DNA of 64,000 nucleotides, taken from the NCBI RefSeq assembly GCF_006175945.1, contig NZ_VAJL01000001.1, positions 868,001 to 932,000 on the forward strand, read 5' to 3'. Made by a program: the position numbers and the translations under genes. Of the stretch, positions 37,520 to 62,810 are shown in pieces; position 1 is the first letter of the stretch, and each line of letters starts with the position of its first letter. The notes under the pieces were generated by a model, which worked only from the letters and a program-made list of their open reading frames with translations, did not search any database and was not told the origin of the DNA. This stretch comes from Chryseobacterium mulctrae. GTDB lineage: Bacteria; Bacteroidota; Bacteroidia; Flavobacteriales; Weeksellaceae.

Positions 37520-37522
37520 CTT

Positions 37523-43649: not shown

Positions 43650-43681
43650 CTGTTTTAATAGTTTTCTCAAAATTATTTAAT

Positions 43682-43755: not shown

Positions 43756-44180
43756 CTTAATGACACCATTAGGACAATTTAGGCCAAATGGTGTCATTTT
43801 ATTTATAAATACTTGTTATTCAGTCTATTTAGAGTATTTTTCACCCTTTTACCTTATTTTTTAAAGCAAAAATTTTTTCTTAAAAAACCAATATTTTATC
43901 TTTTTAAGACGATTTTTCGATTAAAGCTCCATATTATTGCTACGAACCTGACAGGATTCGAACTTTTTCAAAAATATTAAATAACTGAAAATCAAATAAA
44001 TACCAAAATCATTTTTTTTCTGTGGAGCAAAAAGTTCGAAAAGACAAGCCCATCACGTTATCTATACAGGATTTCGAACACTTCAAATGCCATATAAAAT
44101 ATTGTTTTTCAGCGTTTTATATAAATACAATTTAAAATATCAGCTTTACTCTGAAAAATCAAAAACTAATCAATCAATTT
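43756..44180. other. 425-bp spacer at the island's left border
   Basis: Begins with a strong terminator (43759-43798) right behind the tRNA-Arg, followed by AT-rich DNA with no gene. The spacer between tRNA end and integrase is the usual place of an attachment site. Confidence 0.5.
43759..43798 (+). terminator. Terminator after tRNA-Arg copy 2
   Basis: A perfect 12-bp stem (aatgacaccatt/aatggtgtcatt) with a 16-base loop and a T-rich tail. It differs in sequence from the terminators after copy 1, so the downstream flank is of separate origin. Confidence 0.82.
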
Positions 44181-45758
44181 TTAGATATTTTTTAAGTTTT
44201 GTTCATACCCTAAAAAATATAATTCTTTAAAAAATTCAACTATTGCTTGCTCTGTCTGCTGACCATGGATTTCTTTTATTTTCGAAGCTGAAGCAGTTAA
44301 TCCAAATATAGTCTTAACACTTTCTGATAGCATTTTTCCAATATTCCCTTCTATTACTTTTACTTTCTCCGGAAAAAACAACCTGATAATTCTCTGTTTG
44401 GTTATAGTATCTGAATTTTCATAAAACTCCCCTAAGTGGTTAATTATGTAATCAGTTCCCTTTTCTGTATGTTTTTCAGCCACTATTTTTAAAGCCTGCT
44501 GTCTCAACTTATCAGTATTATCTTTTAAAGATTCCTGACAACGACTTCTTATTAGTATATAATCATCATAGTCAATATTCCCATTTGAAAATAGCTTTTG
44601 TGCATTGAATCCCCTATCAATCAATTTTTCCATTTCTTTCTTTATCTCCTCTTTTTTCTGAATATAATCATGATGTTCTTCACCGTAAATTTCCTTTGAG
44701 ATACTATTGGCAAGTTCTAAAAATGGTTCTACCACTCTATTGTTCTTAAGAAATGAGAGAAAACTTAAATTGATAAGGTCGGCTCTTACCCGGTATGAAC
44801 AGAGTCCCACACAGTGATAATAATAATATTTTTTAGTATGTCCCTGCGATCCACTTCCTGTAAGCGTATTTCCACAATTAGGACATTGTAGGACTCCTCT
44901 AAAAATTAAATTTTCATTGACTATCCTTTTTGAAGTTAGTTTCTTAGAATGGTTTAAATCTGCGCCTTTTATTATTCTTTGAACCTGATCAAATAAAACG
45001 ACAGGTATAAGACGCTCATGAGCACCCTCAACAATTCTTTCAGCTTTATCTTCGAATGCCGGAATTTTTATTTTACCACAATAAATAGGATTTCTTACCA
45101 GCCGGTAAAATGCACTTCTACTGCAATGAAGCCCATTTGATAACGCATCCTTGTATATTTCAGTTAAACAATATTTACTTTGTCTCACTATAGCTGTAAA
45201 AGCCTCACGGATAATATATGCTTCCGGTTCGTAGAGGGCTATATATTTTTTTCCATCAGATGTTATTTTATTTCTATATCCTAGAGGAGCTTTGTTAATC
45301 CATCTTCCTTCCAGTCTTGCTTTTTGCATTCCCAAACGTACATTACGGCTTCTTTTATCGTTTTCTACTTCAGAAGTAGCCCAGTACATTGCCAACATAA
45401 TTTTGCTTTCCGGAATTGAGAAGTCTATCTGCTGTTCAATTGCCTGAATAGAAACTTTCATATTCTGCAATCTTTCTAACATCTTGTAAGCGTCCATAAT
45501 ATTGCGGCTGAATCGATCCCAATAAGTAAAGAGAATAAGTGAAGATTGATTTTTAATGAGCTTAAGTTCAGCGAACAATTTGTTCCATTCTGGCCGGTTA
45601 AATGTTTTCGCAGAATAGTCTTCGAAAATAGTTTTGGTAACAATGAGATTGTGATCTTTACAATAGTGCACAAGTCGATCCAGCTGGCTGCGTTGGGAAT
45701 ATCCTTTTACAGCCTGTTCATCAGTACTGACTCGTATGTACAGATAAACGGCTTGCAT
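44181..45758 (-). CDS. Large serine recombinase (integrase)
   Basis: A 525-residue site-specific recombinase. The resolvase domain starts YIRVSTDEQ with nucleophile Ser at residue 11, followed by DRFSRN (about 78) and the long E-helix (SEVENDKRSRNVRLGMQKA). A recombinase domain (residues about 155-260) and a zinc ribbon (CPNCGNTL ... HCVGLCSYR, about 300-330) are followed by a coiled-coil region. Such enzymes insert and excise elements without host factors. The gene sits at the edge of the right island, next to a tRNA gene, and transcribes toward it. It is the probable mover of the island. Confidence 0.92.
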   Translation of the reverse strand: MQAVYLYIRVSTDEQAVKGYSQRSQLDRLVHYCKDHNLIVTKTIFEDYSAKTFNRPEWNKLFAELKLIKNQSSLILFTYWDRFSRNIMDAYKMLERLQNMKVSIQAIEQQIDFSIPESKIMLAMYWATSEVENDKRSRNVRLGMQKARLEGRWINKAPLGYRNKITSDGKKYIALYEPEAYIIREAFTAIVRQSKYCLTEIYKDALSNGLHCSRSAFYRLVRNPIYCGKIKIPAFEDKAERIVEGAHERLIPVVLFDQVQRIIKGADLNHSKKLTSKRIVNENLIFRGVLQCPNCGNTLTGSGSQGHTKKYYYYHCVGLCSYRVRADLINLSFLSFLKNNRVVEPFLELANSISKEIYGEEHHDYIQKKEEIKKEMEKLIDRGFNAQKLFSNGNIDYDDYILIRSRCQESLKDNTDKLRQQALKIVAEKHTEKGTDYIINHLGEFYENSDTITKQRIIRLFFPEKVKVIEGNIGKMLSESVKTIFGLTASASKIKEIHGQQTEQAIVEFFKELYFLGYEQNLKNI

Positions 45759-46132: not shown

Positions 46133-47086
46133 TTAGTTTCTACACGCGAATATTAAATATTCTATTAAATCAATAGATTCTTCCTCAATCCATTCATCTT
46201 TTGAAATAAGCGAATCAATTACCTCAATCTGCCCAATCGTAAAATGAGACTGGTCAAGTCCTGAAAATTGCTTTTCCTGGCTCCATTTACTTTTGTGATG
46301 TTTTACCGTGACTGGTAATTTTTTAGCATTTTTAGGAGGTTCAATGAGTATTATATCTTTTCCTTTTTCTTTAAAAATATTTTTCACCTGGCAATAGATA
46401 TCTAGGCCGTTATAATCCCAGTCACAAAAATAATAGATGGGCAGGCCCAGCTTATCTGCCGAAATGTCTTGCAGGGGCTTCGTATTATTACCGCCAACGT
46501 ACCAGAGTTCAATGTTGCTCTTTTTGTATTCAACAGGTACCTTCAGGCAATCCAGATTTTCGCACAGTACGATAACCTGCGGCTCCAGGCAGTCAACGAC
46601 CCATCTCCATTGATGATTTTTTGGATCATTTTCAGGAAATGCATCTACTTCTAAAAGTTGCAATATCGCTTTCTCCAAAGAAGGCCTGTTCTCGATATAC
46701 TTTGAGTTTTCTTTTCTAAAAAGCTCCGCTGAAAGCTTTTTTCTGGTGGTCATCCTCTTTTTGATCTCTTGTTTATTGTAAAATACAAATATTAAAGCCT
46801 TCAGATCTTGTTCAGTAAAATTTTTCTTACTGTTATTCTCCAGCCCTGATTCCTCAAAAAACTTATTGTAATAGAGAAAAGTTTCCAAAAATTCTTTTTC
46901 ATAAAAAGGTTTAAACCTACTCGAGGACTCGAGAACTAAGTGATTTCCTTTTTGATATCTTACAAGCTTTTTTTGCGTAAAAATGATCCTTTCAATATAA
47001 CTGTTGTTCAGTATTTTTAACCTTGTTTTACCACCTACATATAATTCATGGAGGCCTCTTAAATATTTCCACTCTACTGTTCTCAT
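46133..47086 (-). CDS. jetD: Wadjet-like JetD (Toprim DNA-cleaving subunit)
   Basis: A 317-residue protein. The last half has a Toprim layout: VIVLCENLDCL (glutamate strand, about 155-165) and YYFCDWDYNGLDIY (DxD-type metal site, about 202), followed by the IILIEPP strand. JetD (DUF2220-like) provides the topoisomerase VI-type cleavage of circular plasmid DNA in Wadjet systems. The start overlaps the SMC gene end by four bases, and gene order A-B-C-D is canonical. It is shorter than some JetD proteins, so the N-terminal arm may be reduced. Identity rests on motif and gene order, not on a search. Confidence 0.8.
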   Translation of the reverse strand: MRTVEWKYLRGLHELYVGGKTRLKILNNSYIERIIFTQKKLVRYQKGNHLVLESSSRFKPFYEKEFLETFLYYNKFFEESGLENNSKKNFTEQDLKALIFVFYNKQEIKKRMTTRKKLSAELFRKENSKYIENRPSLEKAILQLLEVDAFPENDPKNHQWRWVVDCLEPQVIVLCENLDCLKVPVEYKKSNIELWYVGGNNTKPLQDISADKLGLPIYYFCDWDYNGLDIYCQVKNIFKEKGKDIILIEPPKNAKKLPVTVKHHKSKWSQEKQFSGLDQSHFTIGQIEVIDSLISKDEWIEEESIDLIEYLIFACRN

Positions 47087-50000
47087 ACTGTTCCGTTTTC
47101 AAGTAGACCAAATATTGGGACAGGATCATAATTTACCTCATCGTCCTCCACACTATTATGCAGGAGGTAGATATTCTGCTTGGCTGCATCTATCTTATGG
47201 GGAGATATTGACATAGAAATAATCTGATAATCATTAGCCTCTGCTATTTTATATAGCATATCAAAGTTTTTGCCCAAACCTGCTGCTTCATCAATGGCCA
47301 TAAAACGAATTGCATCCTTGTCTTTACTGCCAGATTTTTTGTCAAGTAATGCTAACTTGGCAATACACAAAAGTGCAATTGCAGAATACGTCTGACTGTT
47401 ACTTCCATCATTTTTCTTTCCGGAACTGTTTACCATTGAAAATTTAAGTCCATAATACGACTTAGGATTTAAGAGATCTTTTATTTTGGGTTTAAGGTTT
47501 CGGTCACCGCCCGAGCGGTAATAGGCCTGCTGAAGTTTATCGGTTAAAGAGTGATACTTTTCAAGCTCATTTGTAATCCCTTTCTCCTGTTCAAATAAAG
47601 TCTCGTCAGATCCAAGCTCAGCATCTTTTTTAATCTTCTCAACAAAGATTTGCATCCAGTCGGCTGAAAGTGAATTGTCTTTTATCTCAGCCAAGGTAGC
47701 CTTGTGACCGCCGGAGATTATTTTCTCATCATCGTTCAGAAAATTCCGAATCTGTCGTGCGATGTTTAACTGGGTACTGACTTCAAGCCAGACATCTTCA
47801 ATAATCGAAGCCAGTTTATTCAGCTTACGCGAATTCAATTTCTTGTTCTTTAAATTTATATCAGCCAGATACTTTCCTATTTTTTCAATAACATCTTTTT
47901 CCAAAATATTTTCATCACTTAGAATTTCGGGAGGTAAGATCTCTGCACACAAAGCCTGAAAATCTCCCGAATCCTCGAATCTTTTGAAATTATTGTTTAA
48001 ATTTTCCCCTGCAATGACATTATATTTGACGATATATTTATTTTCTGCTGCAGAACAATCTTCACGCAATTGCTCAACCTCCTCATATTGCCTGATCTTG
48101 GGAACATAGGTTGAAACAAAGAGTTCCGGACACTTACCATATGCATCATTCCTCTTCGACTTTAATTCATTTATCAGTCGATCCAATTCTTTAATCCTTT
48201 CTGAACCAGCATAATTCTTCTCCTGATTTTTGTAAATCCCGAAAAAATCATCATAAAACTCCGCATTATCTGAAGCATCGACCAGATCATTAAGGACAGT
48301 AGGCTGCTCTGCAGAATCAAAACGCCATTTACTTTTTATGCCTACAACTTGTTCATCGGATATGGCATCAATGAAAGATTTCTCCAGTTGGGATAGATTG
48401 CTTGATAAGGTTATCAACTCACTTTCTTCCTTTTTTAATGTTTTGTAGGAGTTTTCATACTGCATTGCTTTTGCCGGCACTTCACTATCATTCGCCAAAT
48501 TGAAATGATCGACAAGCTCATCTTTCTTTAACGCAAACAGTTCATGAGACTGTAATTGCACATCCAGCTCCCACTTTGCCCCCCAGGCTTTAACATATTC
48601 ATCGGCATCTCCAAGTTCTTCAAGAATCCTGTAAAGAACACTTAAATCTGCTAAACTCTTTTCTAAACCCTGTATATCCTTAGCAATGTTACTGGTCTGG
48701 ACCTCGAAATATTTTTTAATGTCATCTTTGTTTCCGGTATTGAACACAGGTTCAAAATCTTTTGAAATAAATTCAAGAACACCATTGAGATTTAGCCAAA
48801 ATCCAAGCTCATCTTCGCTATAAACTGGAATCTCCCCGTGAATCAATATCTCCGGCGACGGAAGATATCTGTACAGCTTATCCTGCGGTTGATCGACCCT
48901 GATGTCCTGATTCTGGAACATTCTGATGATTCCCTCCTGTCTCTGATTCAAAACACTGTCTGTTTCAAGAGCCCATCTGGCAATAGAAGTGGCTTCATCC
49001 AGGTTGTTTAGGGACCGAAGCTTATTTTTAAATTCGATTTCCTGTTGCAATAGGTCACAACTATGCTGAATCTGTACAAGTACTGCTTTTCCCGAATAAT
49101 TGGCCAGCAGGTTTGTTGATATCTTATTCTTTTGAATCTGCGCTTCAAGTTCATTTATCTTTCGGATATTATCCTTGGATTCCTGATAGCTGTCGTATTT
49201 GGCCAGAACCTGTTCGGCAGAAATTTCCAGCTCATCCAGCCAGCGCAAGAAATCACCTCTTTTCTTACGTTTATCGGTCCATTCCTTTGTTAGAACAAGA
49301 GCATCCTCAACCCGTTTCTCAATTACAGGTTGCTCTTGTGCTATTTCCTCCATTTTTTTTAAAAGAACAGATTCAAGAAGTGGAAGGAGCCTGGTGCTTT
49401 CTTCATATTTTAGTATCAATTCTTCGAGCTCCTTAAATAGACCATCTTGTTGCTGGCCCAGGAAATCATACTCGGCTTCGATATAGTCTTTAAAAAGACG
49501 CTCCTTTAAAACCTTCAGATCGAGCAGATCACTGAGTTTCTGCTGCTTAATTTTAAGCTTATCTATTTCCGCGACATTATCCTGAAACTGCTTCTCATCA
49601 CCCTGCAGCTCCTCAACCGTGGTTTCAAACCTGTTATAAAATTCTTTTTCTTTCTCATCACCGAACAGAAAAGACTGCAAGCTGACACTCTTATCCATAT
49701 CTAGCGATTCCCGCGAAAAAGCCTGAACAATCCTTGCGTAATTATGCAATGCCTGGTTACTTACCGAAAGATCCAGCGGCAGAATATCATTGTTAAATAA
49801 AATCTTATGGTAGGTCTGGGTCCTCTCCCAGCTTTCACAGGTCAGGTTAAAATTATCAATGATATGGTCACGTAATTCATTGATGGGCAAAATGGAATTA
49901 TCCCGCTGGAATTCAGCAACACCGAGCAGCTGGCCAAACGTTGCCAGCTTCGTATCGGCTTCAAAATTATTCCCCTGCTGAACAATGAACATCTCTGCAG

Positions 50001-50325
50001 CGCCCGAACTTTCCAGATATATCCCGACGATCACATATTGGTTCTTTTTGAGCTCAAGGCTCAAAAATGCATAGCCCATATCAGTACCCTTTCCCTCCGA
50101 TCGTAACACCAGAGTCTTAGCCTCTCTGGGACCACTACCTTTGGTGGGAGAATGGAAATAACGGACCCCAACAAAGATCAGCTGAAGTAGATCGGAAATC
50201 ATACTTTTACCTGCGCCCCCTTCCCCGACAAAATCCGTTCTGAAAGGACCGAACTCATAGTCAAAGTGCTGATGCCTGATGATTCCTAATGTTGACAGTC
50301 TTTTTATTCGCGGATAATCTTTCAT
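47083..50325 (-). CDS. jetC: Wadjet-like JetC (SMC ATPase)
   Basis: A 1,080-residue SMC-type ATPase. Walker A GEGGAGKSM lies at about residues 34-42 inside FVGEGGAGKSMISDLLQL. Long coiled-coil arms with a central hinge fill about 240-900. The C-terminus has a signature-like GSNSQTYSAIALLCIAKLALL (about 985) and Walker B IRFMAIDEAAGL (about 1020), then ISMSISP (D-loop/H region). SMC subunits of Wadjet extrude DNA loops and sense small circular plasmids. Overlaps jetB by four bases (ATGA) and jetD by four. Complete and intact. Confidence 0.87.
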   Translation of the reverse strand: MKDYPRIKRLSTLGIIRHQHFDYEFGPFRTDFVGEGGAGKSMISDLLQLIFVGVRYFHSPTKGSGPREAKTLVLRSEGKGTDMGYAFLSLELKKNQYVIVGIYLESSGAAEMFIVQQGNNFEADTKLATFGQLLGVAEFQRDNSILPINELRDHIIDNFNLTCESWERTQTYHKILFNNDILPLDLSVSNQALHNYARIVQAFSRESLDMDKSVSLQSFLFGDEKEKEFYNRFETTVEELQGDEKQFQDNVAEIDKLKIKQQKLSDLLDLKVLKERLFKDYIEAEYDFLGQQQDGLFKELEELILKYEESTRLLPLLESVLLKKMEEIAQEQPVIEKRVEDALVLTKEWTDKRKKRGDFLRWLDELEISAEQVLAKYDSYQESKDNIRKINELEAQIQKNKISTNLLANYSGKAVLVQIQHSCDLLQQEIEFKNKLRSLNNLDEATSIARWALETDSVLNQRQEGIIRMFQNQDIRVDQPQDKLYRYLPSPEILIHGEIPVYSEDELGFWLNLNGVLEFISKDFEPVFNTGNKDDIKKYFEVQTSNIAKDIQGLEKSLADLSVLYRILEELGDADEYVKAWGAKWELDVQLQSHELFALKKDELVDHFNLANDSEVPAKAMQYENSYKTLKKEESELITLSSNLSQLEKSFIDAISDEQVVGIKSKWRFDSAEQPTVLNDLVDASDNAEFYDDFFGIYKNQEKNYAGSERIKELDRLINELKSKRNDAYGKCPELFVSTYVPKIRQYEEVEQLREDCSAAENKYIVKYNVIAGENLNNNFKRFEDSGDFQALCAEILPPEILSDENILEKDVIEKIGKYLADINLKNKKLNSRKLNKLASIIEDVWLEVSTQLNIARQIRNFLNDDEKIISGGHKATLAEIKDNSLSADWMQIFVEKIKKDAELGSDETLFEQEKGITNELEKYHSLTDKLQQAYYRSGGDRNLKPKIKDLLNPKSYYGLKFSMVNSSGKKNDGSNSQTYSAIALLCIAKLALLDKKSGSKDKDAIRFMAIDEAAGLGKNFDMLYKIAEANDYQIISMSISPHKIDAAKQNIYLLHNSVEDDEVNYDPVPIFGLLENGTV

Positions 50326-50969
50326 TTCAGTTCATTTAACGTATTATCAATATCCACAATGTATTCCTCATAAATCTTTATCAACCTATCAAACGCCGGT
50401 AGCACGGTGAATTCATCGCCTTCTAAAATCAGCCATCCGATCTTTTTGAACTCGATCAGAGCTGACTGTACCGTGGAATCCAACATCGTGTCATTTACAT
50501 TGCCGGGACCGATATTTTTTGATTTTGCGATCAGATAATAAATGCCCCTTTTATAATCATCATAGTCGATCCGGATCTTTTCCTTTAGTCTCTGGACAGA
50601 GTCGAGCAATAAATCATTGTCAATATATACGATTTTATAAAGTATAAAGCCGATAATCACATATTCGCTTTTAAGGATATTACGGTGCCTGGAGGAAATT
50701 TTCCCACGGTCATTTCCATAGAAATCCAAATAAAAATAATTGTCCGGACTCTCGCCCCCCTCACTCAGCCGCACACCAAAAAAATTATGGTAATAATTCA
50801 CAAGACTTTTTATATTCCGCTGTATATAGGCGAAGTATCTGGTCTGGCTCCCGCTATCCTGAAAATGCACGCCATCCTTCAGTTGATAATCAATTGTGGC
50901 AAAAATTTCCCGTGCTTCCTCATCATAGAGGAAATCGAGCATTATGTCCTGATAATTGACATTTTCCAT
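50322..50969 (-). CDS. jetB: Wadjet-like JetB (MukE-like subunit)
   Basis: A 215-residue winged-helix-type protein. Small helices around NTMLDSTVQSALIEFKKIG (about 158) followed by WLILEGDEFTVLPAF match the last wing-like element of MukE/JetB proteins. It contacts the kleisin JetA and the SMC heads. It overlaps jetA by 28 bases and jetC by four, so all four are translationally coupled. The low conservation of this subunit makes the call depend on gene order. Confidence 0.72.
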   Translation of the reverse strand: MENVNYQDIMLDFLYDEEAREIFATIDYQLKDGVHFQDSGSQTRYFAYIQRNIKSLVNYYHNFFGVRLSEGGESPDNYFYLDFYGNDRGKISSRHRNILKSEYVIIGFILYKIVYIDNDLLLDSVQRLKEKIRIDYDDYKRGIYYLIAKSKNIGPGNVNDTMLDSTVQSALIEFKKIGWLILEGDEFTVLPAFDRLIKIYEEYIVDIDNTLNELK

Positions 50970-52255
50970 AATCCAATATTTTTATGTTCAGAATCTCTCT
51001 GCAGAGTTTTTTCTGTTAACAGTTTAAATTTACCCTCACTGGCATATACCTGCTTTATAACGTTGAACAAAACAGTTACCGCGATCTGGCTGCTCTGGGA
51101 ATCTCTCAGTATCTCAAAAAAATAGGCTGATAATCTGATCTCGCCTTTTAATTCAAGCTCCGCAAATATCAGTTTCTCCCACTTGCCAATAACTTCCATC
51201 TCCCGGATTTCCCTTTTGACCTTTTCTACATTCTCCTGTATGATTTCCTCATTTTGAACATATGTTTTTCTTTCCTTCGGCTTTGGTGGAAATAGCTCCT
51301 TATCTCTGCTTACAATAGTAAATTCAGGTGTATCGATGTGCAGTTGTGGTGGCTTAATGTTTCCGGGAAAAACAATATTCCTATTCTCCAAAACACTTTC
51401 ATTCAGAAGATGGATTATAAATTTCTCAACTTTTGAACTAAACGAAGGCTTATTCAATGTGGAAAATAATTTGCGGACCTTGGGTTGAATACGGTCTAAT
51501 TTCCGGTCGAGTGAATTGAGCCTGTCATTGATGTATCTCAGGCACGCATGAACCTCCAAGATCAGATCATTGATTACCGGATCAGTAAAATCTATATTAT
51601 CCAAGGTAGCACGGATATTATTGGTTTCTGAATACGCCGAACGGAGCTCCTGCACATGTGCTTGCGATTGTGACAACCGCTCCTGTGTGGCTACAAGTAC
51701 ATCAATAAAACTATGATCCGAAAAATTCGTCTCATTTTTTAAATCCTCAACGGACAGCACAATCTGACGGTCCAAAAAATCAAGCTGCTCCCTGAGGTCC
51801 GGTTCAAATTTTTTAAACGTTTCCTCGAGCCAGAATCTGGGATCATCCGAATTTTTGAGTGTTGAACTCAGATGGGAACATATCTGCTGAATTCTTGTGG
51901 GGTTAAATGCGCCCTTCAGCGTATCCTTTGCATGCAAACAGAATTTATTGGCATAATCCTTAAAATAATACTTTTGCTTTTCCTGATCATAATCCAAAAA
52001 ATATTCCTGAAGATCCATAATATGACCACTGTACACTTCTTTGGGATACCGCATATTGGTCTGATAAATTTCCTCAAATGCCGTATGGATATCTTTTTCG
52101 GAGAACTTGTCGTCATCAAATTCCTTATTGACAATTCTCTCATAAAGTATGACAATTGCCATTCCCACCTCTTTTGCGGGAAAAAGAAGCTTATAGGTTT
52201 CGTTCTCACTGAGAACACTCACAAAGTTGAAATCAGGTTTTAAATTTTCACTCAA
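50942..52255 (-). CDS. jetA: Wadjet-like JetA (kleisin subunit)
   Basis: A 437-residue protein with a predominantly helical, coiled-coil-rich centre (about 130-285: NETNFSDHSFIDVLVATQERL to LNSLDRKLDRIQPKVR), and a C-terminal winged-helix end (LFNVIKQVY, then LGLWKMSIIRT-like close). This is the MukF/JetA kleisin layout. The first gene of the jetABCD unit; its promoter box lies at 52303-52310. A MukF-like identity is inferred from architecture and position. Confidence 0.75.
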   Translation of the reverse strand: MSENLKPDFNFVSVLSENETYKLLFPAKEVGMAIVILYERIVNKEFDDDKFSEKDIHTAFEEIYQTNMRYPKEVYSGHIMDLQEYFLDYDQEKQKYYFKDYANKFCLHAKDTLKGAFNPTRIQQICSHLSSTLKNSDDPRFWLEETFKKFEPDLREQLDFLDRQIVLSVEDLKNETNFSDHSFIDVLVATQERLSQSQAHVQELRSAYSETNNIRATLDNIDFTDPVINDLILEVHACLRYINDRLNSLDRKLDRIQPKVRKLFSTLNKPSFSSKVEKFIIHLLNESVLENRNIVFPGNIKPPQLHIDTPEFTIVSRDKELFPPKPKERKTYVQNEEIIQENVEKVKREIREMEVIGKWEKLIFAELELKGEIRLSAYFFEILRDSQSSQIAVTVLFNVIKQVYASEGKFKLLTEKTLQRDSEHKNIGLWKMSIIRT

Positions 52256-52880: not shown

Positions 52881-53507
52881 TTAGAAAATAACTTTCCTAA
52901 AAGTCAGCGAAACCCTGCTTTTCCTAGGAAAAGAACGTCCTTTATATACGTCAGTCTTTCTCCCGGCGATACCGTGTGTCCATTTGTAACGGGCTTCCTC
53001 AGACATAATCAACAGGCTTCTAGGCTCCAAAAGAAGTGAAACTATATTTTTACTTTCAATATTGATGAAATCCATTAGGCATGTTGACCCTAGACTGAGT
53101 GCAAAGATAGTCTCTCCAAAACATGGATGACAGTCAACGTGCCCGGCAATACCCTGTCCTGGGAGATATTCATTAACAATTAACTGATCAAAATTCTGAT
53201 CAATCAAATTTCTGCGCCGCATTTTATGAACAACAGGATCTACCCATGCCGGGAGATCCCCAAGATACATGGAATAATTCAACGAGCGCGCACGATAATC
53301 GTATTTATAACCATAGTGCTGAACACGTCTTTTTAAATCATTCAGCCATGGCTCCCTGTTAATGGACTCCAAAAGATTTTTTTCCTCTGCACCTGTGATA
53401 AAATTGGGAATATATCCAAGTCCTCTGATTACACTTAAATCTATCCCTTCATTTATTGATGGGATTTTGTCCATATCATCCGGTAGTGGATTAAATAAAT
53501 CGTACAT
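52881..53507 (-). CDS. AlkB-type 2-oxoglutarate/Fe(II) dioxygenase
   Basis: A 208-residue enzyme with the AlkB signature: YGYKYDYRARSL (substrate lid, about 66), iron-binding HVDCHPCFG (HxD, about 117-125), then YKWTHGIAGRK (distal His, about 169) and a late arginine in SRVSLTFRKV (RxxxxxR-type 2-oxoglutarate grip). AlkB enzymes oxidatively remove alkyl groups from DNA, RNA or protein. It is the last of a four-gene operon: its ATG follows the methyltransferase-like stop by two bases. Pairing an alkyl-removing enzyme with a methyltransferase-like protein suggests paired marking and un-marking, which is an inference. Confidence 0.9.
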   Translation of the reverse strand: MYDLFNPLPDDMDKIPSINEGIDLSVIRGLGYIPNFITGAEEKNLLESINREPWLNDLKRRVQHYGYKYDYRARSLNYSMYLGDLPAWVDPVVHKMRRRNLIDQNFDQLIVNEYLPGQGIAGHVDCHPCFGETIFALSLGSTCLMDFINIESKNIVSLLLEPRSLLIMSEEARYKWTHGIAGRKTDVYKGRSFPRKSRVSLTFRKVIF

Positions 53508-53509
53508 TT

Positions 53510-54970
53510 TTAAGTTAATTCTAAAATTTCAAAGTATACATCCTCGTGTGTCGGACCAAACATGCTGCTCCTTCTGTTATTGTAACTGACCCTTGCAGTA
53601 GTCGAAAATATGGGAGGCTCCACATATCTCAGCAGTCGTTTAAAATTGTTATATTTCACATTTTTAGCAGGGTCCGTGCTGTTCTGGAACAGAAGGTAAC
53701 AAGGTACATCAGGCTTAGATTTTCTAATGTGCATCACATCCTCTGCTAGTTTATTCTCATTAAGACTGTCGCTTGCAAACAGGTAACAGGTATTTATATA
53801 AATGCTATTTGCGTTGTCTAGCAGCTCATAGCCCAGTTCTGCAAGATCGGCAAGATAAAACGTCGTACCCTGATCGTTATATGCGCTGTTCTGCATCATG
53901 TATTCAGCCTCCTCACGCATCGACCCATAATAATCGACACCAAAATAGTCAAAAGAAACAAGTTCAGCACTATCCGAATAGAGATGGTCTACCAGTGCTA
54001 TGCCCGAAGTAGCCGGACCACAGCCTACATCAATAAACTTAATCCTGCCGTTTGTCCCATGAAATCGAGCTATATGGTTGAAACGGTCAAACAAATACAA
54101 GGAGGAGTAGTAATGTTTGCGCATATTAAAATAACAGTAAAGTTTAACAATATCATTACTGGTCAGATGGCCATATAAATCATCAAAATGTGCCTGCCCA
54201 AAATTAATGATCTTTTTCCTGACGGTATACTGGTCATAGCCCAGCAAAATCTCATGCCATTCCGTTCTGGGATGGTTACGGAGATAATCAAGAAACTTAT
54301 TGTTAAACAGCGCTTCTGTGAAAATAGAAGGCTCATAAATTTTTTTAACTTCATCTTCGATCGCTATCTCTGCGGTAAACTGCTGGCGGTTCTGTTGGTA
54401 GATCTCAAGTATAGGATACTGTTGAAGCAAATCAGGATCTTCAAAGAGTTCTTCGAAGGTATGCAGTGCAGCTATTTTGCCTTTTCCCTCAAGTAGAGCA
54501 GCAGTCTGCACGTGATAGGTGTATAGATCACGTAGTACGTCATTTTCGTAATCCTCCACCCCATCAGTTATCGCCGATGATAGTTTTTCAAGATACTTCC
54601 CAAAAAGCCTACAATGCGATTCCGCATCTCTATACTGCCTATGGTGCATCCATGCCCTGAGTCTATTCTTAAAGATGTTTTCACCAATATGGTTCGAACA
54701 GTTCATTACCGAGGCAAGTATATTTGCTCTCTTGAAATAAAAACCCAGTTCTTTGAATAAAAACTGTATTTCCTCGGATCCTTCGGTCTGATCATCAAGC
54801 TGCATGGTACTTAAAAGTACCAGAATCTGATTTGCAAGATCCGTATTTCCCCTATTGACATCAAGGTTGATGAACATCAGCTTCAGACTAGCTCTGTTTA
54901 TGGAGATGTGCCCGATGATCTCCTGTGCGTTCAGCTGAAGAATTGTATCTTGAAAATCCTGCAAAATCAT
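53510..54970 (-). CDS. Methyltransferase-like protein with helical N-terminus
   Basis: A 486-residue protein. Residues 1-300 are mostly helical with no familiar motif. A Rossmann-type SAM domain follows: motif I FIDVGCGPATSGIAL (about 312), acidic end of strand 2 YFGVDYYGSM (about 342), strand 4 SIYINTCYLFA (about 390). The rest is PCYLLFQNS and a final beta extension. It resembles class I SAM methyltransferases, but catalytic motifs such as DPPY or NPPF are missing, so substrate (DNA, RNA or protein) is open. TAATG coupling with the 709-residue gene upstream makes it part of the same unit. Confidence 0.65.
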   Translation of the reverse strand: MILQDFQDTILQLNAQEIIGHISINRASLKLMFINLDVNRGNTDLANQILVLLSTMQLDDQTEGSEEIQFLFKELGFYFKRANILASVMNCSNHIGENIFKNRLRAWMHHRQYRDAESHCRLFGKYLEKLSSAITDGVEDYENDVLRDLYTYHVQTAALLEGKGKIAALHTFEELFEDPDLLQQYPILEIYQQNRQQFTAEIAIEDEVKKIYEPSIFTEALFNNKFLDYLRNHPRTEWHEILLGYDQYTVRKKIINFGQAHFDDLYGHLTSNDIVKLYCYFNMRKHYYSSLYLFDRFNHIARFHGTNGRIKFIDVGCGPATSGIALVDHLYSDSAELVSFDYFGVDYYGSMREEAEYMMQNSAYNDQGTTFYLADLAELGYELLDNANSIYINTCYLFASDSLNENKLAEDVMHIRKSKPDVPCYLLFQNSTDPAKNVKYNNFKRLLRYVEPPIFSTTARVSYNNRRSSMFGPTHEDVYFEILELT

Positions 54971-57099
54971 TATCTACTGACTATTTTTTTTTCAAGTTGA
55001 ATTCTCAGCTGCATTTCCTCCATGTCAATTTTGTCCCTGTTGTCGTACAGGTAACGTAAAAGATCCTTCTTGGCGAAAAAAACACGGTCTAGGAAGTAAG
55101 CGGCATCCCCAAGCTCAGTTATGCTCACCGGTAGAATCTTTATTTTTGCTTTATGGCAGAACGTTCCAAATGTTGATGAAAACGGAATCTCCTGTGGAAG
55201 AAACGAAATCTGTTCGATAAACTTTTCAAAAGGATCAACGAACGATATACTACTGTAAAGTTTACCGTAAAGAAGTTTTTCAAAAACAGGGAAATTTTCG
55301 CCCGGTATTTTCTTTCCTACCTTTTCATCCTCAATATCCTCCCTAATCCTGATAGTCTCAGCTGTAATACCGACCAGACTTTCAAATACAAAACGGTAGA
55401 CTAGTTCAATAACCACATAATCAAAACGGGTGGACAGCTGGAATTTGATCGGCTGTTTCCCTTTGACCATGGATAAAGCAAGGTTAGAGGAACTAAGTCG
55501 CTCCTCACTGTTTCTTAAATTTTTATAACCATAAAAATATCCAAGAACCGCAAATGCATATTCACCGAATGAACGTGAATAAACGGATGCGATATCCCTT
55601 CTGGCAACTTCTATTCCGTTAAGATTTCCGTAATTTCTCAGGAAAGCAAATACGTACAGCGGCAATGCCGATTTTTGCTTGGACTCTTCAACTTCCTTTA
55701 GCGCCTTTTTCCGTTCAACGTTACTCACAAGTAGTGAAAGAACACGTTTAACAGCTGGCGAATCCTCGCCAGAGGCTTTCAGGATCTTCCCAAAGTCCAA
55801 AGTATCTGCATCGGTAAAATTTTCCTCTATCTGAACCCTTGCAAAAAGCCATTTTAAGAGCGATTTGTCAGGTGGACAATTTTCATTGAACAGGTAACTA
55901 TAAAATTCCGAAATAGTATTTTTCTGTACAATTTCAACTCCGAATCCTTCATCCAGAACCTGCATAGCATAGAAAAAATGTTGAGAAAGACTCCTAAATA
56001 CTTTGCTCTTATCAACGGTTAAAAGATCATAATTGCGTAAAAAAGCCAAAAGGCCAAGAATTCGGTCGTATTTATCAATTTTTGACTGATAATCTTCACT
56101 TCCCTTTTTTTCTAAACTTTTAAAGTTGAACTGCTGCCTGAAAACGACCTCCCTGACAATTATTATGTCCTCAGGAATGAATCCTCCATTGAACAGAAGC
56201 GAATCATTGAGAATAGCACTTTTTAGATCATTGCTCTGAACAATTATTTTTTTTATTCTGGTAACTGGCAATGGTACAGCCAAAAGCGCAAAATTATCAA
56301 AGACCGTAATATCCTGATTTTCTATCTGTAATACATCTATCTCCAGTAGGATATGATCGCTTGAGGAATGTGATGAACTGTTGGACAGAACAAGAAAGTT
56401 TCCGTTCACAGTCTGAATATCGGTAAACGCCCGGTTCTTTACATAACTGGAAGGCATTAGTTGTCCCGAAGTGTAATAATGAAATATATTACCTTTATGG
56501 ATCTCCACATAAACAGGTTTTGATAGATCAAAATTGATTTTGTCCATTTCCACGTTATTTCGGTCAGTTTTTGATCTCTTATCAGTAGGCCCATAATCTG
56601 CTTTATCATTTCGATCGACATCAAAAGAAATACTTCCTTGTAAAAATTCCTTTCGAACTTCCATAGCCCCACTATCTGATAATCCATCTTTGTTCTCCTT
56701 GGTTTCAGTTTGTTGCTGCATAGTCAAGAGCTCAGAATTCTGACTTTGCTCATCCTGACCATTGTCAGTCTTGGAGTCCCTAGCGGAGTCATCTACATCA
56801 TTCTCGGGCCCGTGATTCGTTTCTTGCAGCATGATGGACCTGCCAACATTATCTAACGTCTCTTGTTCAGATTCCACGGATATCTTTTTTTCATCTCTTA
56901 CCGTCGTTATATCGTGGTCTATTTGTGCCTGACCAGCAACCTGCTCCCCGCCATCGACATTTCTTTCTTCTATATCTGAAGCCTTCTTGTTTTCTTTATC
57001 TTTAGGCGAAATAGCCCTCTCCCAAAAGCTTCTGCTATCTTGCGGCTTTTTTGTATCTTTCTTATCAACGGGTTTATTTCTTCTATTTCCTTTAGCCAT
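54970..57099 (-). CDS. Unrecognised 709-residue protein with charged N-terminus
   Basis: Family not recognised. Residues 1-190 are low-complexity, rich in K, D, E, Q and S (NRRNKPVDKKDTKK near the start), so probably disordered. A beta-rich part (about 195-330) begins KPVYVEIHKGNIFHYYTSGQL and contains SGQLMPSSYVKN and FLVLSNSSSHS. From about 345 it is helical to the end, with FLRNYDLLTVDKSK and KIIVQSNDLKS as examples. No membrane span, signal or nuclease motif is seen. Helicase stop lies 24 bases upstream and the next gene overlaps by one base, so it is a core subunit of the operon, perhaps a scaffold or sensor. Confidence 0.6.
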   Translation of the reverse strand: MAKGNRRNKPVDKKDTKKPQDSRSFWERAISPKDKENKKASDIEERNVDGGEQVAGQAQIDHDITTVRDEKKISVESEQETLDNVGRSIMLQETNHGPENDVDDSARDSKTDNGQDEQSQNSELLTMQQQTETKENKDGLSDSGAMEVRKEFLQGSISFDVDRNDKADYGPTDKRSKTDRNNVEMDKINFDLSKPVYVEIHKGNIFHYYTSGQLMPSSYVKNRAFTDIQTVNGNFLVLSNSSSHSSSDHILLEIDVLQIENQDITVFDNFALLAVPLPVTRIKKIIVQSNDLKSAILNDSLLFNGGFIPEDIIIVREVVFRQQFNFKSLEKKGSEDYQSKIDKYDRILGLLAFLRNYDLLTVDKSKVFRSLSQHFFYAMQVLDEGFGVEIVQKNTISEFYSYLFNENCPPDKSLLKWLFARVQIEENFTDADTLDFGKILKASGEDSPAVKRVLSLLVSNVERKKALKEVEESKQKSALPLYVFAFLRNYGNLNGIEVARRDIASVYSRSFGEYAFAVLGYFYGYKNLRNSEERLSSSNLALSMVKGKQPIKFQLSTRFDYVVIELVYRFVFESLVGITAETIRIREDIEDEKVGKKIPGENFPVFEKLLYGKLYSSISFVDPFEKFIEQISFLPQEIPFSSTFGTFCHKAKIKILPVSITELGDAAYFLDRVFFAKKDLLRYLYDNRDKIDMEEMQLRIQLEKKIVSR

Positions 57100-57123
57100 T
57101 TTTAATCTTCCTTTTTTGAATTA

Positions 57124-58254
57124 CTATAAACCCTCCAGGATATCCTGCTGGGCATTTTCATTATAAAAATCCAGTACATCTGGCTTTCTGTTGCATAAAA
57201 TGAAAATATCATTTCTGGCCCTTGTCACCGCAACATAATAATGACTTCTTGTGGCATAAAATCTGTCGCTTCTGTTCTTAGTTATCATTGCTTTGTTGGA
57301 AAGCTCAAATAAAGCCATGATCACGATATCAAATTCTAGACCTTTACATGATTCATAGGTCGTTATGAAAGGTGTCCGGAATTTTCGCTTTAAAACTTCC
57401 TCATCCGCAGCACTCATCTCGTTATAATAATACGAAAAGGACTTTTCTACCGGGGCGTCTTCATCACATCTGTAGCCATTGGATATTAGTTCATTTTTTA
57501 TGGTCTCCACTTCGTTTCCGAAGTGAACTAAGATTCCGATGTTACTGTTTGGATTATTTTCAATAATTTCTATAATTAAATCCATCTGCTTCCCATGGGA
57601 AAGTCCGATTCTGATCTCAGGTCGGTTACCAGGTGACAGTTCCGAAGAATCTATATCCTGAACACGGAGATCATCTGGTACAAAATTCTTCGCCAGATCA
57701 AATATCTGTCTCGTATTTCTGTAGTTTCCGCCAAGATATTGCTGGTCAGCTCTAAACTGCTTTCGCAGGTTGTCCAGAATGATGTCTTCTACCTCGTCAG
57801 GTGGATAAAATTCTCTATAATTCTGCGCCCTGTCAGCTCCTACCGTTACTACTTCTGACAGGTCAAAAGTATTATTGTAAACATTGCCCGGAAGATCCTG
57901 ACCCTCATCATAAAATAGTTCATCAAACTTTTGCTGACTACGTTTTTTTCGGATATACCTCCGAAAATTCTCACCCATAACATCGCTGTCTTCATCTTCA
58001 TTGAAATAAGCGACGTTGTCCTTATGCCACTGATAAAATGTTGACAGCCTATTTTTGACAATATCATCAATCTGATCTTCATTAAGCTCACCAAAAAGTT
58101 CCTCGGCACTTGCTTTTAACATTCCTCTTATCGTATAGATCAGTGTCCGGTTAAAGGTAAAAAGCATAATCTCCTGCTCCTCACCGATAGCCCTTAAAAA
58201 CCTAAAAATGGTAACAACTGTCTTACCGCTGCCCGGTCCTCCCGTTACCAACAC
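57124..58254 (-). CDS. UvrD-type superfamily 1 helicase, interrupted by an in-frame stop
   Basis: The longest clean frame is 376 residues from a GTG at 58254. It carries Walker A VTGGPGSGKT (residues 3-12), motif II LFYDEGQDLPG (about 115), motif III VGADRAQNY, motif IV NYRNTRQIF (about 176), motif V TYESCKGLEFDIV (about 305) and motif VI YVAVTRARNDIF (about 355). In frame upstream, ATG at 58335 opens MPEFRFSLPAITALYNDQ and then meets TAA at 58279-58281, followed by LAYNPRHS and the Walker A strand. So the Q-motif region is in the same frame but behind a stop. Either the gene is a pseudogene, the product starts at GTG without the Q motif, or the stop is an error. First gene of the four-gene operon. 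Confidence 0.8.
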   Translation of the reverse strand: MLVTGGPGSGKTVVTIFRFLRAIGEEQEIMLFTFNRTLIYTIRGMLKASAEELFGELNEDQIDDIVKNRLSTFYQWHKDNVAYFNEDEDSDVMGENFRRYIRKKRSQQKFDELFYDEGQDLPGNVYNNTFDLSEVVTVGADRAQNYREFYPPDEVEDIILDNLRKQFRADQQYLGGNYRNTRQIFDLAKNFVPDDLRVQDIDSSELSPGNRPEIRIGLSHGKQMDLIIEIIENNPNSNIGILVHFGNEVETIKNELISNGYRCDEDAPVEKSFSYYYNEMSAADEEVLKRKFRTPFITTYESCKGLEFDIVIMALFELSNKAMITKNRSDRFYATRSHYYVAVTRARNDIFILCNRKPDVLDFYNENAQQDILEGL

Positions 58255-58523
58255 AGAGTGTCTTGGATTGTAGGCCAGTTACTGATCGTTATATAGCGCA
58301 GTTATGGCAGGTAATGAAAATCTGAATTCTGGCATAGTTATCTTATTTTTTTTTGTTTATGCCTTCCCTAAACCAACAATCAACATCGTCCAGCAGCTTA
58401 AAGGCATACCACTGCCGGCTGCAATCATCATTGCACCTACCGCTAGTTTCCCAAGAAGAGGCACCAAATCTAAAGAACAGTCCTGTTTGCACCCAAACTG
58501 GGCATCGGACTGTTTTGTCCACA

Positions 58524-59109
58524 TTATTTTGTCCTGAGCAAATTTACTTCTTTTTCTTTATAGAACAGTAGTCCAAATTGATTATAATGATGTGTAAAAT
58601 GACAGTTGTGAAATATCACCCATTCACTAAAGTTCAGCTCACCCATTATGGGATTTACAGGGTATACCTCTGGATTCTTTCTGAAATACTCCCTGAATTC
58701 CCCCAGCTCTACATTCAATTCTCCAATGGCATCTGCCAATGTTGAACACTTTAGTAATAAAAGCATGTCTTTGGGCAGAACAGGGTGCTTAAAGTCTTTT
58801 GGCATATATTTTTTTTAATAACCATTTTCCTTTACTAGACTCTCCTGTTCACTCGTATAATAGCTTGTCTGTGGCTCATTTCCGTTGGAAAATCTTCCAA
58901 AAAGTGAAAGATGCTCGATCATGTGCTGAGGCGTCATTGTTCCGAAATTAGGTTTCTGTTCCCCACTAAGTTTGTTAAGCATTTCGTCCAGAAAAGCATG
59001 TTCTTAAATATTGATCATTTTTACGTTATTTTGATATCCTACTTCAACTCCAGCTATCCCGAAAATTTCGCCACATTCAGTCGCAAATTCCAGAATCTCT
59101 GCAGTGTTG
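58524..59109 (-). pseudogene. DUF1569/DinB-like protein, broken by two stops
   Basis: One minus-strand frame reads EILEFATECGEIFGI, then stop (about 58990), FLDEMLNKLSGEQKPNFGTM with PQHMIEHLSLFGRF, a second stop near 58817, and MPKDFKHPVLPKD to the end (HFTHHYNQFGL). The HFTHHxxQFGL and MTPQHMIEHL signatures are those of DUF1569, a DinB-like helical-bundle family. All parts stay in the same frame, so point mutations rather than indels destroyed it. A conserved homolog would be about 190 residues. It lies between the Hsp90-like gene and the helicase operon. Confidence 0.7.
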
Positions 59110-59216: not shown

Positions 59217-62200
59217 TTACAACGAATGTGAATAAAAAGGATTTAAACCATAATCTTCTGTGTCACTCATATTAAAAAACTGATAGTAACTCCCTTTTTC
59301 CGTCTCGAAAATCGTCTCTTCCACAAAAACTTCAACCGAAAGATGTTCCAGGGGTTCATAATTTTTTATCAGCTGTCCACTTTCGATCATAACATTGATC
59401 TCATCGATTACCATATTGGTCTCATGCAGTAAAAATTCATGGTCAAAATAAGTATTATGATCAAAAAATGGCAACTCCATGACCTTGTCTATCAATTGCG
59501 CAAGTTCTGCCGAGCTTGCTATTGGTTTTTGTTCAAGAACTGCGATGTTCGCTAAAATCCGAAGTAATCTTTTTGTGAAAGGATGTCGCTGATTTAGTAT
59601 TCCCGTGCCATAACCCATGGCATCTTCGTAGGGCTCTTGAAATGGACCGATCTGTGGGAATACATCGATATATTCATGAAGCTCTTCACGGATCTCATAT
59701 AGCAGCTGCCCGAAATATTCCTCTTCCACGGTCTCGATATTTTCTGCCGCCTTCGTCAATATCTCGAAATATTCAGCTGAACAGGTCGCTACCGAAGGAT
59801 CCCATCTGGCCTGGATCAGTGGCGGTCCACCAAACCAGGGTGATTCCACAAAGCGGAATGAACAAAAAGTGTGGCTAAGGAATATATAAGACTGAGCCAG
59901 AAGACTTCCCGTAATAGCCTGCACTGAGCCTTTTTTCTTATAAAGCTCAGGATAGCTTATATCACTGATAACAAAGGTATCTCCTCTCCAGTCCAGCAGA
60001 TTCTCGTCCAATTTATGCCGTTCGTCAAACTCCTTCAGGACCATTTCCCTAAACCAGTAGGTATAAGACGGTTGAAAATGGACGGGTCGGCCCATATGGT
60101 TTTTCCATGTATCAAATTTTAGGATTCCCTGCTCGTTAACAGTCATCAGGGGGGCATTCTCCAGACCGATGAATTTAATTATTACGCTAAGTGGGACGCG
60201 ATAAAAGAAAATCAGATAATTGATATACATCATCCTTTTCTTCAGATCAGGATCCATAAGCTTTTCTTTATGTATTTCAATGATATACAGATAGAGTTTC
60301 TTTGCTAAAGCCTCGTCCCAAAAATATGTCTGCTGCCTGATCTCGGTCCTGGAAATATTTGTCTGCCTGATATCATTTTTGATAAACTGCACGTGCAATT
60401 GGGGAACAACAAACCTTTCCATCGGATAATAATCAAAGAAATCCTCTGACAGGTGTCCTTCAAAGGAACCTCCCTCGACGGAAGTTGGCGGAATCGCTCT
60501 TGGAACCAAAATTCCGTCTAGGTAAACCTTGTAAGGTTCGGTCGAATATGAACTTTGTCCATATGGATAATCTCTGCCAGGGTTTGCGTGCTTGTAGGAA
60601 CTCCAGATGGATCTTATCTTTACTATCCTGTCTTGCGTCCTCTTTCCTGGAAATACCAGTGAATATTCGGGTTTGTTGCTGGGATAACCGGCAATTTTTA
60701 AAAATGGATCTTTCGGAATTATAAAACTGACGGATCCGGTAACCCCTTCCATTTTCAGATCATCATGGATCGAAATCTGTTTTACCGTGAAATGTTCCCT
60801 GGCAAGTTTCAGGCTCTGTGGTAAAAAAATCTTGCTGAAATCAATTGCGGTATCCAACCTGTGAACTTCATATCCAGGGTAACTATCTGTTTTATCGAGC
60901 GGGTCAACAATAACAGTACTTTTGCCTCCTTCCTTGATATATATCGGAAAATCAATATATCCCGTAAGATTTTTCAGATAAGAAGTGATATCAATCCGTG
61001 GATCTTCATCAACTTTGCCTCTGATCTTATTCTTTGAAACATAAACCGTTACTGTGGTTCCCACTGGCTCGTACTCGTGGTTGGTTGCAGATACCCGGAA
61101 CTGCTGGTCAACGTGGGGAATATCAATATTTATAACCTTACTGTCACTTTTAATGTGTGGATCTTTAAAGGTACTGATATGGACCTTGTCGGCAACCATG
61201 AAACAGCTCAGGATACCCACACCAAATTTGGAAATCGGATCCATCTCCAACCCCAGCTGTTTGAATTCATCGCTTCCATAGTAGCTTTTTCCGGCAATAC
61301 TCAGATAATTTTCAATGATATACTGATCCATTCCGATTCCATCATCCTTAATAGAAACGGTCAAGAGATCATCCCCTGCGTCTTCTACCTCTATTGAAAT
61401 TCTTCCAAAATTGCTCACGGTCGCACCTGTATTTTTTTCGATCCATTCCTTACGCATGCGGATGGCATCAATTGAATTCTGAACAAGCTCACGGATAAAT
61501 ACATATTTGTCCCCACTGTAAATCTCTTCGCTAAGTACATCAAACATTTTGGTTCTATCGAACTGAAATTTAATTAGGATAGGGTCAAATCCCAATGCCC
61601 GAACATTCCACTTGATATCAAAAATATTAAGATAGTATCTTTCGCTTGGATCATCTTTCAGCAAGTCATTACAGCCCACAAGCTGCTCCACGCAGAAAGT
61701 TCGCAGATCCTCTAGTTCGGCATAGACCTTATAATCATTGGTCTGCCCATCGACCTGTATCAGACGCCCATTCTGAAATGCCACAGTGGCAAGAGAATTT
61801 ATCGCGAAGTGCTTTGACCACTCCATTTTGGAACGGTATGACTGTGGTGCTGTATATTTATAGATCGCATAAGGTGTGCGTTCATTGGTGATATCAAAAA
61901 GGTCAATCAGGCGAAGATAGATAGCTACCGCCCTGAGGTTTACCCGTTCGCCCTTAACAATATAATTCAATGGATAATCATCCTGATCCCTGAGCTCCTT
62001 GAAATCCAGCCAATGTCCGATACACACTCTCGCGGCTGCCTCTCCTATTCCATTATCAATCGTCTTAAAGTATTTTCTAACTCGTTGTGCGCTTCTTTCC
62101 GCATGGGTCTTCCTAATGTATTCCTGCCATGTGAAATCTGAAATCTTATCAGTTTTTTCGCCAAAAACTTCAAGATGTCTGGCAAATCGGTTATGCTCGG

Positions 62201-62585
62201 AATTGAGCAGCGCATATTCCTCAGGGCTGCTACCGGGGCGGTCTGCTATGGCATCTTTTTCGGCCTGTGATACAGCCATCCCCCAGTCGTGTCCAAATAT
62301 TGACAGACACAGGATCAGTAGCTCGGCCGCATTGAGCCGCTCAATAAGTTCATGTCCCAAAATCTCCTCGGCCAGACCAAGTAAACGGCGAAGATGAAAC
62401 TCTTCCTCGTGTGGTGTGTATTCAGGAAAAACCTGGCAGATAAATTTGACATGCTGGCTTACTAATCTTTTGAAAGCAAGAAAAATATCCATATAATCAC
62501 TAAATGCCAATTTTTCCGCAGATTTATTTTGTAGAGCTGTAAGAAGAAATGAATCCTCTACCATAACAGCATCAAGTTTGTTCAT
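59217..62585 (-). CDS. HD-domain plus Hsp90/GHKL-type ATPase protein
   Basis: A 1,122-residue protein (start ATG at 62585, MNKLDAVMVED; an ATG 54 bases upstream is less likely). The N-terminal 330 residues form an HD-type hydrolase-like unit (EEFHLRRLLGLAEE, FGHDWGMAVSQ near 120, then AARVCIGHW). A GHKL/Hsp90-type ATPase follows: RELVQNSIDAIRMR (N-box, about 368), VSIKDDGIGMD (DxGxG, about 410), then GKSYYG and SKFGVGILSCFM (about 447, the G-box loop). The long C-terminal half resembles Hsp90 middle and late regions. HD-Hsp90 fusions are reported in bacterial conflict or defence islands, which fits here; the activity itself is unproven. Confidence 0.82.
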   Translation of the reverse strand: MNKLDAVMVEDSFLLTALQNKSAEKLAFSDYMDIFLAFKRLVSQHVKFICQVFPEYTPHEEEFHLRRLLGLAEEILGHELIERLNAAELLILCLSIFGHDWGMAVSQAEKDAIADRPGSSPEEYALLNSEHNRFARHLEVFGEKTDKISDFTWQEYIRKTHAERSAQRVRKYFKTIDNGIGEAAARVCIGHWLDFKELRDQDDYPLNYIVKGERVNLRAVAIYLRLIDLFDITNERTPYAIYKYTAPQSYRSKMEWSKHFAINSLATVAFQNGRLIQVDGQTNDYKVYAELEDLRTFCVEQLVGCNDLLKDDPSERYYLNIFDIKWNVRALGFDPILIKFQFDRTKMFDVLSEEIYSGDKYVFIRELVQNSIDAIRMRKEWIEKNTGATVSNFGRISIEVEDAGDDLLTVSIKDDGIGMDQYIIENYLSIAGKSYYGSDEFKQLGLEMDPISKFGVGILSCFMVADKVHISTFKDPHIKSDSKVINIDIPHVDQQFRVSATNHEYEPVGTTVTVYVSKNKIRGKVDEDPRIDITSYLKNLTGYIDFPIYIKEGGKSTVIVDPLDKTDSYPGYEVHRLDTAIDFSKIFLPQSLKLAREHFTVKQISIHDDLKMEGVTGSVSFIIPKDPFLKIAGYPSNKPEYSLVFPGKRTQDRIVKIRSIWSSYKHANPGRDYPYGQSSYSTEPYKVYLDGILVPRAIPPTSVEGGSFEGHLSEDFFDYYPMERFVVPQLHVQFIKNDIRQTNISRTEIRQQTYFWDEALAKKLYLYIIEIHKEKLMDPDLKKRMMYINYLIFFYRVPLSVIIKFIGLENAPLMTVNEQGILKFDTWKNHMGRPVHFQPSYTYWFREMVLKEFDERHKLDENLLDWRGDTFVISDISYPELYKKKGSVQAITGSLLAQSYIFLSHTFCSFRFVESPWFGGPPLIQARWDPSVATCSAEYFEILTKAAENIETVEEEYFGQLLYEIREELHEYIDVFPQIGPFQEPYEDAMGYGTGILNQRHPFTKRLLRILANIAVLEQKPIASSAELAQLIDKVMELPFFDHNTYFDHEFLLHETNMVIDEINVMIESGQLIKNYEPLEHLSVEVFVEETIFETEKGSYYQFFNMSDTEDYGLNPFYSHSL

Positions 62586-62810
62586 AATTCTAAATAGTAT
62601 CGTGTTAATAGTTGAGCTTAAATGTAGTGAAATAATCATTATCCAAAGCCTGAAAAAGGTTGAATTTTCAATAATCTTCTGCCTTTATTTCATGATTATG
62701 GCATACTATTTCCAGCTTGCCCTGTTCTAAGAGATAATCAGTCCGCTCACTCTAGCAAATGCCTCTAGGTACAGTACATCCATTTTCTTCGTGCCCCAGT
62801 CCACCTATAA

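Follow-up and report, generated by a model that had tools for sequence, protein, structure and literature searches.

A conserved mobile module of helicase, DarT-like fusion protein, methyltransferase and AlkB dioxygenase in Chryseobacterium mulctrae, with a possible role in defence

What might a UvrD-type helicase, a protein built from two ADP-ribose-related domains, a methyltransferase and an AlkB dioxygenase do together in one operon? The question is raised by a stretch of 64,000 nucleotides from Chryseobacterium mulctrae (assembly GCF_006175945.1, contig NZ_VAJL01000001.1, positions 868,001 to 932,000), here called the window. Four leftward open frames between 52881 and 58254 encode, in the order of their coordinates, an AlkB-like protein, a methyltransferase-like protein, a fusion protein of 709 residues and a superfamily 1 (SF1) helicase. 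The helicase and fusion-protein genes are 24 bases apart, the fusion-protein and methyltransferase genes overlap by one base (TAATG), and two bases separate the methyltransferase gene from that of AlkB, as an earlier annotation from the letters of the DNA alone (the sequence-only reading) had described; the spacing of helicase, fusion-protein and methyltransferase genes is similar in relatives. We propose that the four genes are one conserved, horizontally moving module, probably with a part in defence and with foreign DNA or RNA as its target, a reading to which, together with the working outlined below, we assign a probability of roughly 0.42. That they form a conserved mobile module is well supported; an antiviral role and its mechanism are what we infer.

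Evidence for the module comes chiefly from its recurrence at 17 loci besides that of the window, each with some flanking sequence (L002–L005, L011–L014 and L026–L034; L015 repeats L002, and the close relatives L004 and L005 are each counted). The helicase gene adjoins a gene of the fusion-protein family in 17/17, and the methyltransferase is found in all 15 whose contig continues, the contigs of L013 and L014 ending inside the fusion-protein gene. An AlkB gene lies downstream, upstream or divergently in 15 of the 17; the remaining two carry DUF1848, one of them being L013, where the truncated contig leaves room for AlkB as well. The sequence-only reading had proposed beforehand, as a check on its grouping, whether the four genes co-occur elsewhere, and they do. 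The methyltransferase at L012 is very divergent (17% identity) and was part of the profile seed, while those of L028 and L033 were missed by the small seed profile and scored 1e-84 and 3e-74 in a later search whose model includes both. When 400 genomes were searched for the methyltransferase separately, with no use of the ADP-ribosyltransferase-like (ART) domain and with three candidates scored in each genome, ten full-length copies emerged, all at the ten ART loci of the matching search, plus three partial matches (the C-termini of helicases at L055 and L056, and a short stretch at L057). A chance neighbourhood was rejected because the gene set recurs across loci and this search, which is independent of the ART domain, agrees.

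Although the gene set is conserved, its distribution is sporadic: the ART family occurs in 4/395 genomes of the order, 4/395 of a phylum sample, 9/400 of the order of Sphingobacterium and 2/98 of the class of genome G673, the phylum sample overlapping both the order sample and that class. Across 13 of the 17 loci (L005 and L012–L014 being omitted), correlations of 0.835–0.949 link the distance matrices of the helicase, the fusion protein and the methyltransferase, whereas AlkB distances correlate at 0.475–0.488 with those of the helicase and fusion protein and at 0.722 with those of the methyltransferase. For this reason, the helicase, fusion-protein and methyltransferase genes look like a core and the oxidative gene like a movable or swappable fourth. 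As to vehicles, neither the 50,697 phage records nor the 72,556 plasmid records searched by tblastn contain a match to the window fusion protein, a divergent homologue gave none among the plasmid records, and a scan of viral contigs for relatives, limited to two peptide patterns, found none. The window methyltransferase matched plasmids through its C-terminal domain only, in three cyanobacterial plasmid records.

The fusion protein (54970–57099, minus strand, as for all four genes) was described in the sequence-only reading as lacking any recognised domain, which has to be revised. It belongs by Pfam cut-offs to both PF22546 (2CompART; residues 196–314, 56158–56514; E 5e-33) and PF22545 (2CompARG; residues 336–532, 55504–56094; E 5.6e-30), with scores of 114.3 and 105.1 bits against a cut-off of 27. 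Its AlphaFold model has the fold of DarT, an ADP-ribosyltransferase of DNA, and bears a looser resemblance to ADP-ribosylglycohydrolases, the fold match of the helical glycohydrolase-like domain covering residues 336–576; compared with the PDB by sequence profile, the protein gave no match. Residues 1–177 (56569–57099) have a predicted local distance difference test score (pLDDT) under 50 and are predicted to be disordered. The homologue at L034 has an N-terminal SAP domain in place of this part, and Rho_N is listed for nine of 117 proteins.

DarT itself needs R51 and E160 together, according to a review (PMC9967889). The segment around its catalytic glutamate aligns with a conserved ‘PLPISRIK’ block of the fusion-protein family, found in 152 of 159 homologues and absent from seven, and a profile alignment (using nine of 12 DarT matches; L067 was dropped, and L068 and L069 were unused) places the glutamate, E160 of the Thermus enzyme, at Phe270. 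Of the 152 homologues, one has an acidic residue there and 151 have a non-acidic one. Because DarT requires both residues, DarT-type ADP-ribose transfer by the fusion protein is predicted to have been lost. Beyond the C-terminal half, the alignment to DarT is weak. Ligand could be bound by further conserved residues, namely H207, Y208, D227, Q229, E253 and R281. In the glycohydrolase-like domain, the 31 rows of the nearer clade share an NFxDxD motif, with D430 in 29 and D432 in 31; this stretch is absent from the 39 divergent rows. ARH enzymes have the metal motifs DDT and DxDT; where the C-terminal motif aligns, the family has no aspartate, in a comparison with 14 of 20 ARH loci that is itself insignificant (E 0.14–0.19).

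The helicase has an SF1A core of the UvrD/PcrA/GajB type, as judged from profile matches to PcrA (6e-21) and GajB (6e-14) and from the GajB model of PADLOC (7e-15); it is a minimal enzyme, the family measuring about 340–420 residues. The sequence-only reading had started it at 58335; that frame hits an in-frame stop at codon 19 (58279–58281), and the readable frame runs from a GTG at 58254 to 57124, giving 376 residues with Walker A and B present. What is lost (58255–58335) amounts to 27 N-terminal residues relative to the nearest relative, and these precede the Walker A loop. That relative, at L002 in Chryseobacterium cheonjiense, has a near-identical operon, in which 19 of 5,455 positions differ; one of these differences is the stop, and the L002 helicase is intact at 403 residues. 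Unless the ribosome starts anew at the GTG, the helicase of the window is probably impaired.

Some of the helicases carry a C-terminal end resembling that of single-stranded DNA-binding protein (SSB). In a set of 203 frames, each 150 residues or longer, from 18 loci (L015 repeating L002), the pattern [DEN][DEN][LIVM]PF closes eight of 18 helicase frames and none of the 185 others. In the host genome, two of seven SSB-family matches end in DDDLPF.

The 486-residue product of the third gene (53510–54970) had been called a Rossmann methyltransferase-like protein, a description that holds: the Pfam match is weak (E 0.0079, under the cut-off) and the fold is clear. More exactly, it is a class I methyltransferase of METTL17/Rsm22-like fold with a helical N-terminal part of roughly 200 residues; by sequence profile, the PDB offers weak matches only. 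The pattern of the S-adenosylmethionine (SAM) loop is present in 118 of 120 listed homologues. METTL17 bears iron–sulfur cysteines. In the present family, cysteine is the majority residue in columns 91, 279, 317 and 395 and is near-invariant only as C317, within the SAM loop (44 of 46). A domain related to the window methyltransferase forms the C-terminus of two SF1 helicases of 1,477 and 1,479 residues at L055 and L056. The protein at L055 (7752–12185) is MkoA-like (PADLOC 1e-63) and adjoins a CBASS cyclase and phospholipase; that at L056 (7783–12222), outside the PADLOC scan, is similar.

The fourth gene (52881–53507) encodes an Fe(II)/2-oxoglutarate dioxygenase of the AlkB family, 208 residues long, for which the best PDB profile match is human ALKBH8. 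The HxD...H metal site and the R...R pair for 2-oxoglutarate are intact in it, as they are in 15 of 15 aligned sequences. Identity with the E. coli-type AlkB equivalog was rejected (20.4 bits against a cut-off of 231). At L034 (3758–5093) there are two AlkB genes, one divergent and one inside the operon. DUF1848 stands next to the gene set at L012 and L013, the two loci at which AlkB is not seen; it shows a CX3CX2C motif and is a putative radical-SAM enzyme. One DUF1848 protein compared with the PDB by sequence profile gave no match. That AlkB and DUF1848 swap between loci points to a reaction on a base that is oxidative or runs through a radical.

How might the proteins work together? The UvrD-like helicase would load on single-stranded nucleic acid at sites of replication or transcription and, in the copies that possess it, the SSB-like tail may dock the enzyme to the SSB network. 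The fusion protein would be the recognition subunit, binding nucleic acid or NAD+/ADP-ribose and, with the DarT catalytic glutamate predicted to be lost, probably transferring no ADP-ribose in the manner of DarT. Once the target is bound, its bases would be modified by the METTL17-like methyltransferase and AlkB, or DUF1848 at two loci, which write modifications and oxidise or remove them. The gene set, its conservation, the folds and the intact AlkB and SAM-binding residues are results of computation, whereas complex formation, docking, the target, the order of steps and the antiviral outcome are inferred. In its most specific form the proposal is a tentative one, and rather unlikely to be right in every part: an inactivated DarT/glycohydrolase-like pair, joined in one protein, would be the recognition part of a complex driven by the helicase, in which the METTL17-like methyltransferase and an exchangeable oxidative enzyme, AlkB or DUF1848, add or take away an unusual modification on the bases of the invader, the SSB-like tail guiding the helicase. 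The UvrD-type helicase and the SSB-like tail speak for DNA as the target, the resemblances to METTL17, ALKBH8 and Tpt1 for RNA. The sequence-only reading had envisaged a set of enzymes that mark, open and un-mark nucleic acid. This remains a hypothesis. Nucleic acids or ADP-ribose are indeed what the component families act on, and the set is related to ADP-ribose as well as to methyl groups.

The surroundings of the genes bear on defence and mobility. CBASS genes lie near the helicase gene at L003 (phospholipase at 4.7 kb, cyclase at 5.8 kb); within 5 kb there are the Hachiman gene HamB (2e-225) with the restriction-modification genes HsdM/HsdS at L027 and QatA (7e-132) of Qat at L029, and L028 has an Eco57I/N6-type methylase within about 5 kb. 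An nSTAND3 protein is encoded nearby at L011. Known defence genes are close to the module in some genomes (L003 and L027–L029), whereas no known defence system was found among the scanned genes of L004, L026, L030 and L034. The GC content of the four genes (0.386–0.405) exceeds that of three host stretches (0.320–0.351), in agreement with the mobile island that the sequence-only reading had suggested. A tRNA-Pro and tRNA-Arg pair occurs twice (37339–37520 and 43575–43756), the copies being nearly identical over 187 bases, and a serine recombinase gene (44181–45758) follows just after the second pair; the duplicated tRNAs and the recombinase are a possible island edge. Next to the module, a four-gene Wadjet/Mks-like operon (46133–52255) includes genes of 215 residues (MksE, 7e-18) and 317 residues (weakly JetD_C, 0.0028). 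Because the PADLOC Wadjet models do no better than E 0.015, it is a divergent Wadjet-like type.

On the other side of the operon, a 93-residue frame (58524–58805), probably what is left of a gene, matches the C-terminal end of DUF1569 weakly (E 0.014, below the cut-off). Further upstream of the helicase, 59217–62639 encodes a 1,140-residue protein with an HD-CE domain (3e-39) and a histidine-kinase-type ATPase domain, which is 99.7% identical in C. cheonjiense. At L003, in Sphingobacterium, a gene some 1.3 kb upstream of that for the helicase (4018–5472) encodes a RES-domain protein whose N-terminal domain is of HEPN/RES type.

Several observations weigh against the module as we propose it. 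The start of the window's own helicase is broken, copies elsewhere being intact. The SSB-like tail is absent from the window helicase, from its nearest relatives (L002–L005) and from L013, L014, L028, L029 and L033, and in the host genome an end of the DDDLPF type is missing from five of seven SSB-family matches. The placement of the DarT glutamate derives from weak local hhalign matches (E 0.003–0.005 for one comparison; probability 7–10%), global runs having given no useful alignment, and the likeness of the second domain to true ARH sequences is insignificant by the same method. The defence neighbours come from chosen flanking genes, with no background rate, and to them must be added the loci at which no known system was found. 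The serine recombinase (0.34) and the JetD-like gene (0.349), which belong to the island too, do not share the raised GC content, and AlkB follows the other three genes less closely than they follow one another. Finally, work on tRNA or the ribosome would account just as well for the affinity to ALKBH8 and for the METTL17 fold.

That last point leads to an alternative centred on translation, in which methyltransferase and AlkB alter tRNA or rRNA, and this remodelling shuts down or re-tunes translation upon infection. We hold this to be improbable: a UvrD/PcrA-type helicase and an SSB-like tail indicate DNA, and the relative of the methyltransferase domain that is fused to an MkoA-like SF1 helicase is compatible with either target. 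It is easier, if still doubtful, to see the module as a reverser of lesions, removing ADP-ribose or alkyl adducts left by phages or rival toxins, with the DarT-like domain as reader, the glycohydrolase-like domain and AlkB or DUF1848 as erasers and the helicase exposing the strand. AlkB belongs to a family of direct-reversal enzymes, for which DUF1848 with its CX3CX2C motif substitutes at two loci; a DarT fold without its glutamate and a helicase of UvrD type would also fit, and host systems that counter viral ADP-ribosylation were proposed in a 2022 study (PMC9503650). However, the template offered there consists of hydrolases without a coupled transferase, and neither ‘AlkB’ nor ‘UvrD’ occurs in its main text. 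Moreover, the metal motifs of the glycohydrolase are unrecognisable in the divergent clade, and lesion reversal leaves the methyltransferase unexplained.

The fusion protein might instead be a toxin and antidote in one, after the manner of DarTG, its DarT-like domain ADP-ribosylating invading DNA or RNA by an altered chemistry while the glycohydrolase-like domain, with AlkB, protects self. The shared DarT fold invites this idea, which we consider distinctly unlikely in view of the nearly uniform lack of an acidic residue at a position that DarT requires along with R51, and of a Pfam domain of 120 positions against 201 for DarT. The DarTG systems differ from the present one in other ways too. 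DarG is a macrodomain or YbiA-like protein (PMC9967889), whereas the second domain here is glycohydrolase-like, both domains are held in a single chain, and that chain is linked to helicase, methyltransferase and AlkB; no Pfam match to a separate DarG macrodomain or YbiA-like antitoxin was found among the four genes.

The proposed module also shares parts with other known systems and enzymes. To judge from the names of the two Pfam families, a ‘2-component’ ART/ARG system has been predicted before; the co-occurring genes, the SSB-like tail and the missing glutamate are observations of the present analysis. The SF1A core is common to Gabija GajB and to UvrD, PcrA and Rep, from which the present helicase is set apart by its short length and, in eight of 18 frames, its tail. 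GajA is not among the 11 window genes scanned by PADLOC, and the flanks of the other loci were not systematically combed for it. METTL17 and Rsm22, which act in assembly of the mitochondrial small subunit, share the fold of a methyltransferase that is here bacterial, with an additional helical N-terminal part and one near-invariant cysteine. ALKBH8 and AlkB share the metal and co-substrate residues with what is here a stand-alone operon gene. In Mokosh, to which the L055 protein is related, the helicase family of MkoA differs from that of the operon helicase, and no DarT-like protein was detected by profile in the 16-kb stretches of L055 and L056. Among the literature matches listed, the four-gene set does not appear in any title or start of an abstract.

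If the reading of a defensive module is true, the four genes would be a defence system that combines ADP-ribose-type and AlkB-type chemistry. It would raise the questions of what role a DarT fold plays without its catalytic glutamate, why AlkB and DUF1848 take one another's place, and whether an SSB-like tail may steer a defence helicase.

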